Assembly (NCBI RefSeq): GCF_000024205.1
Contig: NC_013216.1
Span: forward strand, 4,340,001 to 4,404,000
From: Desulfofarcimen acetoxidans DSM 771
Lineage (GTDB): Bacteria; Bacillota; Desulfotomaculia; Desulfotomaculales; Desulfofarciminaceae
DNA: 64,000 bases
Direction: 5' to 3'
The translations under genes were made by a program, and so were the position numbers. Positions 22,032-57,683 of this stretch are shown here, piece by piece. The first letter of the stretch is position 1. Each line of letters starts with the position of its first letter. A model generated the notes under the pieces. It saw only the letters and a list, made by a program, of their open reading frames with translations, did not search any database and was not told the DNA's origin.

Positions 22032-22061
22032 TTGACAGATAAAATAAGCTTATAGTAAAAT
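22032..22061 (+). promoter_or_regulatory. Promoter of the pab operon
   Basis: A perfect -35 TTGACA (22032-22037) and a -10 TAAAAT (22056-22061) are separated by 18 nt. Transcription would start near 22069, leaving a leader of about 165 nt before pabA. Confidence 0.7.
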
Positions 22062-22091
22062 GTAATTAGATTTTTCTGAAAATTATATGCT

Positions 22092-22153
22092 TAGTTGAGC
22101 TTAGATCAGTTGAGATGAGAGAAGATGAGACGACTCGGAGAACGCGGAGTGAG
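22092..22153 (+). promoter_or_regulatory. Candidate TRAP (MtrB) binding site in the pab leader
   Basis: Eight NAG triplets lie at an exact 5-nt period: TAG 22092, GAG 22097, TAG 22102, CAG 22107, GAG 22112, GAG 22117, AAG 22122, GAG 22127. Three more GAG triplets follow at 22138, 22147 and 22151, making eleven, the number of subunits in the TRAP ring. TRAP binds (G/U)AG triplets separated by two nucleotides when tryptophan is bound and, in Bacillus, also controls pabA. The array is followed directly by a terminator and the pabA gene. Confidence 0.6.
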
Positions 22154-22187
22154 AACCAGCTTATTTGTGCTGGTTTTTTTTATTTTT
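22154..22187 (+). terminator. Intrinsic terminator (attenuator) in the pab leader
   Basis: AACCAGC pairs with GCTGGTT across an eight-base loop and is followed by TTTTTTATTTTTT. It is located 45 nt before the pabA start and directly after the NAG-triplet array, as in a transcription attenuator. Confidence 0.85.
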
Positions 22188-22232
22188 TAAGCCGTTTCTA
22201 TATCTATAAATTTGTTTAAGGAGGGTTCACGC

Positions 22233-22832
22233 ATGCTGGTATTAATAGACAATTATGATTCCTTTGTTTACAACCTTTACCAGTACCTGTGCGAATTGGG
22301 ACAGGAAGTTCTGGTTTTTCGCAATGACAAGGTCACACTGGCACAAATTGAAGCCCTTTCACCTTCTCACATAATCATTTCGCCCGGGCCTTGTTCTCCC
22401 AACGAGGCAGGTATTTCCATGGAGGTTATTTCCTATTTCGCCGGCAGAATTCCTGTGCTGGGGGTTTGTCTGGGACACCAATCCATTGGACAGGTTTTCG
22501 GCGGCAGGGTCCTGCGCTCTCCCCGCATGATGCACGGCAAAACCTCCCGGATCAGACATGACGGGCGCACTGTTTATAAAGACCTGCCCAACCCCATGAC
22601 TACCGCCCGTTACCACTCTCTTATAGTCGAAAAATCAGATCTTCCGCCGGTTCTGGAAATCACTTCGGAAACTTCGGAAGGTGAATTAATGGGGGTAAGA
22701 CACAAAGAATACACAGTGGAGGGTGTGCAATTTCACCCGGAATCAATTTTGACAACCGCCGGCAAAGAGCTGCTGGCTAATTTTTTAGAATTGAAAGGGG
22801 GTCTCTGGCGTGAAAACCCTGCCTTTGCTTAA
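22233..22832 (+). CDS. pabA: Aminodeoxychorismate/anthranilate synthase glutamine amidotransferase
   Basis: 199 residues, class I glutamine amidotransferase. N-terminal [18 protein letters not shown], oxyanion region ISPGPCSP, the catalytic Cys in [10 protein letters not shown] and the His/Glu pair in VQFHPESI are present. It supplies ammonia to PabB; in many Firmicutes the same subunit also serves TrpE, hence the frequent tryptophan control. Start ATG 22233 has AAGGAGGG 9 nt upstream. It overlaps pabB by 23 nt. Confidence 0.92.
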
Positions 22833-24297
22833 AAAAATAGATGTCGCCGCCGACGCGGTTCTCTTGTATGAGCGTTTGCAATCCGGTTCTTATAGTTTTT
22901 TTCTCGATACCGGCATGAAATCACCGGGCCTCGGTCACCATTCTTTTGTAGGCGCAGATCCCTTTTTGCTGTTCGAAACTAAAGACGATCTAATTACGAT
23001 AACCAGCAACGGACGGCGGCAAAACATTACCGGATCTCCTTTAAAGGAATTGAAAAGACTTTTAGCCGAATATCAAATGCCTCCGGTTGACACGGGACTG
23101 CCTTTCAACGGGGGTGCCGTGGGCTTCTTCAGTTACGATTTAGGCAGACAGATAGAAGTTATACCTGACCGGGCCGTGGATGACCTGGAACTGCCCGACT
23201 GCCAACTGGGCTTTTATGATGTCCTGGCAGCCGTCAATCACCTGACCGGGGAAGTATTTGTTGTTTCCACCGGGCTGCCCGAAAAAGACCCGGAACTGGC
23301 TTTCCGCCGGGCGGAAAAAAGACTGGCAGAAACGGAAAAGCTTTTGTGCGGCCCGGAATCTCAAAAGGACGCCCGGCCCGCGCCTGCCGGGATCGCGACA
23401 CCCGGCAGGATTTTTTCCTATCCCGAGCGGCAGGAAATCAGTTTGCCTCAATCCCATTTTACCCAGGAGAGTTATTGTTCCGCAGTACAAAAAGCTATTG
23501 ATTATATTGCCTCAGGCGATATTTTTCAGGTTAACCTGTCCCAGCGCTTCTCTATACGCCAGACCACTGATTCATGGAAACTGTATAAGAAATTGCGGGA
23601 GATTAATCCCGCTCCTTTTGCCGCCTTCCTGTCTTTTGCTGATGTAGAGGTAATAAGCGCTTCCCCCGAACGGTTTTTAAAAGTTACCGGCAAGCAGGTG
23701 GAAACCAGGCCTATTAAAGGGACCAGGCCCAGGGGCAAAACAAAAGCTGAGGATGCTCTTATGCGGCGTGAACTCTGGGAGAGCATCAAGGACAGGGCGG
23801 AACTGGTTATGATTGTGGATATGGAAAGAAACGATCTGGGACGGGTCTGTAAAATAGGCTCGGTAAAGGTGCCCGAGCTTTACCGGCTGGAAGAATACGC
23901 GACCGTATTTCACCTGGTTTCCACGGTAGTCGGCGAACTGCCGGAAGATAAAACCACCATAGATTTACTGGAGGCGGCTTTCCCCGGCGGCTCAATCAGC
24001 GGAGCACCTAAAATCCGCTCCATGGAAATCATTGAAGAACTGGAACCTGTGCGGCGGGGAATCTATACCGGGTCTATCGGCTATATCGGCTTTGACGGGG
24101 ATGCTGACTTGAATATTGTTATTCGCACTATTATCGCCAGGCACGGCCGTTTTTACTTCCAGGTGGGCGGTGGTATTACGGCTGACTCAAATCCTTATGC
24201 CGAGTATATTGAGACGCTGGATAAGGCGAGAGCTTTGATGAAAGCACTGGGATTAGAGGAGAAGGAGGAGTATTCTTGGAGCGTTTCGTCCAGATAA
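22810..24297 (+). CDS. pabB: Aminodeoxychorismate synthase component I
   Basis: 495 residues of the chorismate-binding family. The motif [10 protein letters not shown] has the Lys that marks PabB (TrpE has Ala in this position), and [21 protein letters not shown], and [13 protein letters not shown] follow in order. Makes 4-amino-4-deoxychorismate for folate. GTG start, overlapping pabA. Confidence 0.93.
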
Positions 24298-25178
24298 GCA
24301 GCACTCAGGATACCGGGCAACCGCCCGCCGCTCAAAAAACACCCGGTGATACAACTTATGTCTGCTGCAACGGTGAAATTATTCCGGCAGAAGCAGCTTC
24401 ACTGCCGGCAGCAGACAGGGGCTTACTTTATGGCTACGGGCTTTTTGAAACTTTCATGGTTAAAAAGGGCCGGGCGGTTTTTGTTGAGGAACACCTGCAG
24501 AGACTGAGCAGCTCCGCGCCTAAACTCGGTCTCTTATTATCGGAAGAAGACTGTCAAACCGGAATCATTAACGGTATAAACAGAGTTATAGAAAAGAACT
24601 GTTTACAGGAGGGCAGTCTGCGTTTGACGGTTACTGCGGGCTCGGAAAGCGAACGCAGGCCCGGTATACTTATAACCGTTAAAAAAGCCCCGGCATATCG
24701 CAGCGAGCATTACCAACAGGGATTTCGGGCCGGTTTTCTGAAAAACCCGAGGAACGAGCGCTCTCCCCTGGTTTATCTTAAGTCTCTCAACTATTTGGAG
24801 AACCTTTTAGGAAGACAGGAGGCTATATCCAGCAACTGGAATGAAGGATTATTTCTAAACACTCACGGATGTCTTGCCGAGGGAACTGTCAGCAATATCT
24901 TTTTGGTAACCGGGGATAAAGAGCTGGTTACTCCTCACGTCTCTTCCGGCCTGCTGCCCGGAGTTATGAGGGCTAAAGTGCTGCGGAAAGCCGCTGCCGC
25001 CGGCTATCGCTGCCGGGAAAGGGCTGTACTGCCGGAGGAGTTGTTTTCGGCCAAAGAGTGTTTTCTGACTAACTCGCTGATGGTGGTCATGCCCCTGGTG
25101 GAAGTGGACGGGAAAAGCATCGGAGACGGTAAACCGGGTCAAGCAACCGGAGAGATCAGGGCTGGGCTGGAGATTTGA
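24276..25178 (+). CDS. pabC: Aminodeoxychorismate lyase (class IV aminotransferase fold)
   Basis: 300 residues. PLP enzyme that releases pyruvate to give p-aminobenzoate. The PLP-Lys is in LVYLKSLNYLENLL, the ADRGLLYGYGLFETF and GCLAEGTVSNIFLV motifs are typical. Start is TTG 24276 with GGAGAAGGAGG upstream and it overlaps pabB by 22 nt. D-amino-acid or branched-chain aminotransferases share the fold, but the operon position settles the call. Confidence 0.88.
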   Translation: MERFVQISSTQDTGQPPAAQKTPGDTTYVCCNGEIIPAEAASLPAADRGLLYGYGLFETFMVKKGRAVFVEEHLQRLSSSAPKLGLLLSEEDCQTGIINGINRVIEKNCLQEGSLRLTVTAGSESERRPGILITVKKAPAYRSEHYQQGFRAGFLKNPRNERSPLVYLKSLNYLENLLGRQEAISSNWNEGLFLNTHGCLAEGTVSNIFLVTGDKELVTPHVSSGLLPGVMRAKVLRKAAAAGYRCRERAVLPEELFSAKECFLTNSLMVVMPLVEVDGKSIGDGKPGQATGEIRAGLEI

Positions 25179-56495: not shown

Positions 56496-57080
56496 ATGGT
56501 CAGGCGCACAAGGAGTAAAATTGACGCCCTGCCGCCTGAATTGAAGGACGCTGTGGAGCAGATGATATTAAACCCCGTTCAGTTTACCTATCAGGATATA
56601 TCTGAATTTCTGAAAGATAAGGGACATGAAATATCATATGTGGCGGTGTACCGGTACGCCAGGCGGATGAATGCCAATATCCAGATGATAGTTGCTGCAC
56701 AGGAAAATTTTCAGCGGTTGACAGAGGAAATGGAGAAATACCCCGAGCTTGATTTTGTGGAGGTCATCCAGCGCATCCTGGCGCGGCAATTAGTTGACCG
56801 CCTCTCCTCTGCCCCGGATGAGCAGTGGGATGACCTGGAACTGGATAAAACCATTAAGGATGCGGTAGCGCTATCCAGAGCGGCTACTTACAAAAAGCGT
56901 ATGGATGTGCAGATGCGGGATAAGCAGGAAGCCGGTTTGCAGGAATTCAAGGCACTAATATTTGACGCCATGGCTAAAGAACGTCCGGAGCTATATCACC
57001 AGGTTAGCCAGTTCATCAATGAAAAGAAGCGCCAGGGTCTGGTTGATTCCGGGGAGGAGCAGACATGCATTGGTACGTGA
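56496..57080 (+). CDS. Mu gp27-like protein (DUF3486), probable small terminase
   Basis: 194 residues. N-terminal HTH pattern RSKIDALPPELKDAVEQMIL, FTYQDISEFLKDKGHEIS, YVAVYRYARRM, then a helical region. DUF3486 proteins precede the large terminase in Mu-like phages and probably recognise the packaging end. The end overlaps the NusG-like gene by 16 nt. Confidence 0.8.
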   Translation: MVRRTRSKIDALPPELKDAVEQMILNPVQFTYQDISEFLKDKGHEISYVAVYRYARRMNANIQMIVAAQENFQRLTEEMEKYPELDFVEVIQRILARQLVDRLSSAPDEQWDDLELDKTIKDAVALSRAATYKKRMDVQMRDKQEAGLQEFKALIFDAMAKERPELYHQVSQFINEKKRQGLVDSGEEQTCIGT

Positions 57081-57559
57081 TCCACTGTTTGACCGGACAC
57101 GAGGAAGACGTAAGGAGCCGGGTAAAAGAAAAGGATATTGCCAGGGCTGTGGTGCCCAGGCGTCTTATGGTAGAGCGACGGCAAGGAGGGTGGCAGTATG
57201 TGGAGCGGGTGGTGTTCCCCGGGTATGTATTTGTGCAAGCACATATGACACCGGCAGCATATTACGCTATGAGAAATCTACCAGGGGTAATCCGAGTATT
57301 GGGAACCAGCCGTCCGGTACCGCTCATGGGAAATGAAGTCACCTTGTTTTTAAAGCTCTGCCGTGACGGGGACCCGCTTGGTTTGTCGGAAGTGTTTGTA
57401 AAGGGCGGCAGTGTAAAGGTAATTTCCGGACCATTAATGGGCCTAGAGGGACATATTGTCAAACTGGATGCAAGACGATTCCGGGCTAAGGTAAATATCA
57501 GCTTGATGGGTGAACCAAGAATTGTTGAACTTGCCGTTAGTGTGATTAAAAAAACCTGA
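57065..57559 (+). CDS. NusG paralogue (LoaP/RfaH-like antiterminator)
   Basis: 164 residues. NGN domain (1-100; HWYVIHCLTGHEEDVRSRV, VFPGYVFVQAHMT, PGVIRVLG) and a C-terminal KOW domain (VKVISGPLMGLEGHIVKLD). Shorter and more divergent than housekeeping NusG, similar in outline to LoaP proteins that promote processive antitermination of long operons. Encoded inside the late operon, just upstream of a structured leader and the lysis/packaging/head genes. Its role in late gene read-through is inferred. Confidence 0.85.
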   Translation: MHWYVIHCLTGHEEDVRSRVKEKDIARAVVPRRLMVERRQGGWQYVERVVFPGYVFVQAHMTPAAYYAMRNLPGVIRVLGTSRPVPLMGNEVTLFLKLCRDGDPLGLSEVFVKGGSVKVISGPLMGLEGHIVKLDARRFRAKVNISLMGEPRIVELAVSVIKKT

Positions 57560-57607
57560 TAATCTGACATGTTTGATTCGTCGCATGCCAGGTAAATGGT
57601 TTTTATA

Positions 57608-57683
57608 GTATTGGGGAAACCGGATGAAAAATCCGGGTGGCGAAGCCTGCCCTAAAAAGAGTACAAATCTTTTATTTCAATAC
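57608..57683 (+). ncRNA. Structured RNA leader element of unknown class
   Basis: GTATTG (57608-57613) pairs with CAATAC (57678-57683) and encloses three hairpins: CCGGAT-gaaaa-ATCCGG (57620-57636), GGC-gaa-GCC (57639-57647) with possible GGG/CCC closure, and AAAAGA-gtacaaa-TCTTTT (57655-57673). The closed multi-branch shape indicates a folded RNA in the 5' leader of the amidase/terminase genes. The GGGGAAACC...GAAGCC text recalls the core of cyclic-di-GMP-I riboswitches but key bases differ. Confidence 0.55.

Follow-up and report, generated by a model that had tools for sequence, protein, structure and literature searches.

A putative TRAP-dependent attenuator with a conserved hairpin core ahead of the pab operon of Desulfofarcimen acetoxidans and its relatives

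What might a run of TRAP-like triplets be doing ahead of a p-aminobenzoate operon in Desulfofarcimen acetoxidans DSM 771? TRAP is the textbook tryptophan attenuator, and to our knowledge it is known almost only from Bacillus. The locus in question lies in a stretch of 64,000 nucleotides (positions 4,340,001-4,404,000 of a genome assembled as a single contig of 4.55 Mb), which we call the window and in whose own numbering all unprefixed positions are given. A first-pass annotation of the window, made from the letters alone, had proposed a TRAP-controlled leader that attenuates transcription of the whole pab operon. Here we argue that the leader is probably a tryptophan-dependent transcription attenuator of pabABC, in which TRAP and a small conserved core with a hairpin, P1, would both act on the terminator.

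The arrangement is headed by a sigma-70-type promoter, TTGACA-18 nt-TAAAAT (22032-22061, + strand), which matches the consensus at 11 of 12 positions. Between the triplet array and the first gene stands an intrinsic terminator, as in a trp-type attenuator (22154-22190, + strand; called as 22151-22178 plus the U run), composed of the arm AACCAGC (22154-22160), a loop (22161-22168), the strand GCUGGUU (22169-22175) and a U run. The arrangement read by the first-pass annotation, with the array flanked by a good promoter and an intrinsic terminator and standing ahead of pabA, is thereby confirmed. Three genes follow on the same strand: pabA, the glutamine amidotransferase component (22233-22832; ATG at 22233 with AAGGAGGG), pabB, aminodeoxychorismate synthase component I (22810-24297), and a pabC-like gene for an aminodeoxychorismate lyase or class IV aminotransferase (24276-25178). 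PabB scores above the cut-off of the NCBIfam pabB equivalog TIGR00553 (352.9, cut-off 328.4) and PabA passes the trpG_papA subfamily cut-off. The pabC-like product scores below the equivalog cut-offs and is named from position and similarity.

The array itself (22092-22129, + strand) consists of eight NAG triplets in an exact 5-nt period: TAG at 22092, GAG at 22097, TAG at 22102, CAG at 22107, GAG at 22112, GAG at 22117, AAG at 22122 and GAG at 22127. Three further GAGs stand 3' of it at 22138, 22147 and 22151, which gives the eleven triplets counted by the first-pass annotation. A chance origin of the array can be dismissed: in 200 dinucleotide-Markov randomised 64-kb sequences no register run was longer than five triplets and no chain score exceeded 5.7, against eight in register and a score of 7.65 here, the highest of the window on either strand (runner-up 3.6). 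Together with the GAG 8 nt beyond it, the array has the features expected of a TRAP leader: at least nine NAG triplets, mostly GAG or UAG, 2-3 nt apart and above chance. However, the eleven triplets are probably not all TRAP contacts. Most relatives read GGGG at the position of the 22147 GAG, and the 22151 GAG belongs to the 3' strand of the conserved hairpin P1 and is GCG in other lineages, so that neither is likely to be bound and nine triplets are left. Judged from this comparison, the putative TRAP site is likely to comprise the eight in-register triplets and the GAG at 22138-22140 (+ strand), which opens the P1 loop and whose counterpart in other leaders is an NAG only where an array is present.

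The proposal hinged on the presence of mtrB, the TRAP gene, and one copy was found in the genome (C1:826694, E 1.2e-41). Its product passes the MtrB equivalog cut-off (146.3 against 117 bits) and can be aligned along its length with solved TRAP rings, including the tryptophan- and RNA-binding segments. The residues that contact tryptophan and RNA in B. subtilis TRAP (T25, T30, K37, K56, R58 and their neighbours) are all conserved here. Among 60 sampled relatives of the order mtrB was detected in 58; in the draft assembly G005 the arrays are kept and mtrB was not found, for which an assembly gap would be the simplest explanation. With mtrB in the genome and the array conserved in relatives (see below), TRAP control of the pab leader appears well supported on comparative grounds. 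In the neighbourhood of mtrB (L001:1483-1710) we noted the end of a dnaE-like gene on one side and a small open reading frame followed by an accD-like gene on the other. No anti-TRAP gene was found above threshold in this genome, and among the 60 relatives only L287 (G042:C1:1839768-1839935) exceeded the curated cut-off; the weaker matches, most of them inside long open reading frames, may represent zinc domains of DnaJ.

The trp operon lies elsewhere and has a trpE and a trpG of its own, and the genome holds separate trpG and pabA genes. A second TRAP array with a terminator stands ahead of trpE (L032:664-800; G000:C1 about 917226-917362), and when folded by hand this trp leader forms a classical antiterminator made of array triplets. 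Strict triplet-pattern sampling of the genome matched the pab leader alone; such patterns miss the trp leader because of its triplet spacing. Nearly all trp operons of relatives carry a TRAP array and a terminator as well. In trp leaders of the Desulfofundulus group (L065-L068, upstream of trpE) a GGGGUGUGGACU-like sequence lies 3' of the array and resembles the core of the pab leaders; possibly it stems from a leader duplication.

How far does the pab leader extend beyond this genome? A covariance model with the terminator as its sole structure, for which E-values are rough, was scanned over 113 genomes of the class and returned 40 full-length copies at E < 1e-14, the next matches being chance terminator matches at 3e-5. 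The motif recovered 39 of these 40, and the remaining copy (G018) was already present as L077; the class copies stand before pabA-pabB or pabB. Further copies of the core came from several families among 398 sampled genomes of the phylum; where the DNA downstream was at least as long as a gene, these too precede pabA or pabB. Altogether the core was found in 72 leaders, one of them at a contig end where the downstream DNA was not readable; pabA or pabB lies downstream in all of the other 71, including one leader (L191) that is without a terminator and has only a pabB fragment downstream. The first gene is pabB and not pabA in many relatives, and the leader is unchanged there. Arrays ahead of pab operons recur throughout Desulfotomaculales and beyond, and reach a shuffle p <= 0.05 in 59 of the 72 core-bearing leaders; the conservation of the triplets in close relatives, on which the first-pass annotation had staked its reading, is thus observed. 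Four pabA-pabB operons of the order (L041, L045, L046 and L054) have neither array nor core upstream, so that in them this control was lost or replaced. We also noted a weak core-like match (GACGCAGAAATAAGGTGAGGACCAGCC) with a GAG array at L198:467-530, which is not upstream of pabA or pabB according to tblastn.

The core lies between array and terminator and can be written as GAC(U/G)CG-N10-13-UG(A/C)GNACC. In the aligned pab loci the sequence that follows the array reads (N)AG-ACGACUCG-(G/U)AG-N-GGGGUGAGNACC and runs into the terminator. The core of the window measures 24 nt (22130-22153), and its 4-bp hairpin P1 abuts the terminator. All of its parts are on the + strand: a conserved 8-nt spacer between two TRAP triplets (ACGACUCG, 22130-22137) with the 5' P1 strand CUCG (22134-22137), the 3' end of the P1 loop with the conserved sequence GGRR (22146-22149; GGAG here, GGGG or GGGA elsewhere), and the 3' P1 strand UGAG (22150-22153), which becomes UGCG where the 5' strand is CGCG. 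Most leaders have GACUCG...UGAG, while GACGCG...UGCG is found in Desulfotomaculum copahuensis and two other families, and this change from U-A to G-C seems to have arisen at least twice, in one species of Desulfotomaculales and in other families. In the first 68 leaders, a count that takes in related species, the pair is U-A in 53, G-C in 15 and never broken; among 35 distinct rows there are 25 U-A, 10 G-C and again no broken pairs. The search pattern permitted the mixed U/G-A/C cases and none occurred. The pair counts of P1 exceed those of all 500 shuffles and all slid controls, and RNAalifold, unprompted, found both P1 and the terminator. Strong conservation extends outside the paired bases, to a G-A before P1 and to the GGRR of the loop.

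Several other structures were considered for this region and set aside. GGGGUGAGNACC superficially resembles the T-box sequence AGGGUGGNACC, but the pab leader is without stem I or specifier, its UGAG sits in the covarying hairpin, and it gave no meaningful match to a T-box or any other cis-regulatory family in Rfam. A hairpin ACUC/GGGU seen in single folds pairs in 86% of cells, without covariation, and is broken in most CGC lineages. A GGU-GAGR-ACC hairpin as antiterminator is disrupted both here and in every GGGAUGCG leader, a local GAG-ACGA-CUC hairpin fails where the upstream triplet is UAG or CAG, and a TTNTTT pause motif in the terminator loop is absent from short-loop leaders. Pairing of the loop YGG with the CCR of the terminator arm is found in 93%, which is not clearly beyond shuffles, and it is poorest in this window, with a C-A mismatch; a helix-extension test gave p = 0.02 with a statistic that ignores relatedness. 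Possibly the GGRR loop end contacts the CCR of the arm.

Ten leaders carry core and terminator without a triplet array. Five of these come from one family, in which mtrB was detected in no genome searched, including the complete single-contig genome G409, and the other five belong to a family in which mtrB is retained. In all ten the first triplet of the P1 loop is AAA, AAU or AAC, while array-bearing leaders have GAG, UAG or CAG at the loop start, in place or shifted by one base. The NAG at the loop start thus goes with the array and is part of the TRAP site, and P1 itself is independent of TRAP. In the array-less leaders the core starts a short way 3' of the promoter, preceded by an AACUGAA-like stretch with which many array-bearing leaders open as well. 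That these leaders retain core and terminator but have no TRAP sites means that the core must respond to a factor besides or instead of TRAP.

How, then, could TRAP and the core act on the pab operon? In B. subtilis the TRAP site of pabA (trpG) comprises nine triplets and overlaps the ribosome-binding site, so that TRAP acts on translation of one gene. Target gene family and regulator are both common to the two systems, and the D. acetoxidans site likewise precedes a pab gene and likely has about nine triplets. Here, however, the array stands about 75-90 nt upstream of the pabA ribosome-binding site (about 90 nt from the array end), with a strong operon terminator between them, pabB comes first in many relatives behind the same leader, and trpG and pabA are separate genes. 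This placement fits transcription attenuation and not the Bacillus mode, and repression of pabA translation by TRAP is most improbable. Transcription attenuation in its classical trp-type form, in which TRAP blocks an antiterminator that overlaps the terminator and has array triplets as its 5' strand, has the trp leader of the same genome as a precedent, and the predicted nascent fold of the window does pair AGAUGAG at 22123-22129, which contains array triplets, with CUUAUUU at 22160-22166, which spans the top of the arm and the terminator loop. This pairing reaches only one base of the terminator arm, though, the arm 22154-22160 being otherwise mostly unpaired, and short-loop leaders such as L136 and L138 are unable to form it. 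Nor does the 5' end of the leader pair with the arm any better than permuted sequences do (p = 0.86). When the triplets were blocked, upstream pairing of the arm fell from 0.77 to 0.54 in trp leaders (n=36) and from 0.49 to 0.43 in pab leaders (n=39), a comparison made on predicted folds with terminators called automatically, a step that did not pick up the trp leader of this genome. Predicted folds of full leaders favour the terminator in nearly all cases, with no strong competitor in this window. The part of the original proposal that concerns attenuation of the whole operon is hence consistent with the placement of array and terminator, while a conventional antiterminator overlapping 22154-22160, for which it had suggested a search by folding, was not found in the pab leader. 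We regard the classical form as unlikely. The small loss of arm pairing in pab leaders, compared with trp leaders, suggests instead that the decision element is probably the core.

This raises the question whether the core alone might be the primary regulator, a TRAP-independent small riboswitch or protein-binding hairpin (perhaps under autogenous control by a Pab protein), to which the array was added as a further layer, placed between promoter and core, in most lineages. The array-less leaders described above, half of them in a family without detectable mtrB, their position close behind the promoter after a shared opening stretch, the conservation outside the paired bases and the strict link to pab all speak for such a core. 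On the other hand, an aptamer of this size would be very small, predicted folds and pairing tests brought out no clear alternative fold to switch the terminator, and the core might do no more than contribute passively to an efficient terminator. We give this reading close to an even chance. A role for a ribosome might be read from the same bases: a leader open reading frame would start at a conserved RUG at the 3' end of the P1 loop (53 GUG and 19 AUG, 72 of 72 leaders) behind the SD-like GGAG at 22137-22140, and a ribosome there would block the terminator while TRAP competes for the GAG. Such a tetramer precedes the RUG in 52 of 72 leaders, and most leaders begin the frame with V/M-R-T-S; but variants with UAG or CAG and leaders without TRAP sites have lost the tetramer, the frame varies from 4 to over 30 codons without a conserved stop, the start codon is buried in the covarying P1, and the conserved codons fall in the terminator arm. 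A leader of this type is very unlikely here.

Our preferred reading combines TRAP and core. Tryptophan-charged TRAP would wrap the eight in-register triplets and the GAG at 22138 on the nascent RNA, whereupon transcription would stop at the terminator (22154-22190), so that abundant tryptophan would lower pab expression. The gap between triplets holds the 5' strand of P1 and the P1 loop opens with a triplet, an arrangement that points to competition: TRAP would not stay bound on a properly folded P1, nor would P1 fold properly under bound TRAP. Without TRAP, P1 would oppose termination, perhaps through a contact of the GGRR loop end with the CCR of the terminator arm. We infer TRAP binding, the tryptophan dependence and the direction of P1 action from the arrangement of these elements, and P1 may act in the opposite direction and help termination. 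As B. subtilis TRAP can terminate transcription without the attenuator hairpin (PMC3913778), TRAP bound upstream of the terminator may be sufficient.

With the model of the B. subtilis trp leader (PMC3913778) the pab leader shares the promoter, a (G/U)AG array with 2-3 nt spacing, an intrinsic terminator, a short leader, MtrB in the genome and tryptophan as the presumed signal. It differs in that it controls pab and not trp genes, in that pab leaders are without a conserved antiterminator of array triplets, and in the 4-bp hairpin core, which also exists without TRAP. In the literature searched, largely that outside subscription journals, we found no description of TRAP or of such a leader in these bacteria. 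Attenuation of a whole pab operon in an anaerobe order together with a pab-specific core absent from Rfam would thus seem to be a new combination, although the TRAP part may have precedent. It is possible, at somewhat less than even odds, that the core is an undescribed pab-specific regulatory RNA of several lineages of the phylum, a switch of ~50 nt made up of hairpin and terminator, which senses a ligand or a protein of the p-aminobenzoate/folate branch and has repeatedly been combined with a TRAP site. If the core does sense the pab branch, one attenuator would integrate tryptophan with a second signal. Across an anaerobe order TRAP would act on the branch of chorismate metabolism that leads to folate, even where trp and pab have no amidotransferase in common. 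As the pab-linked hairpin survives the loss of TRAP, these leaders would offer a natural set, with and without TRAP, for the action of an RNA-binding ring and a small RNA on one terminator, and the core is a short and easily tested candidate for a new regulatory RNA.

A further structured RNA was noted elsewhere in the window. A RAGATH-28 RNA (RF03052, 58.5 bits) lies at 57567-57646 (+ strand), directly 3' of a NusG/RfaH-type open reading frame (57065-57559), and precedes amidase-like and terminase-like open reading frames in an apparent prophage block.
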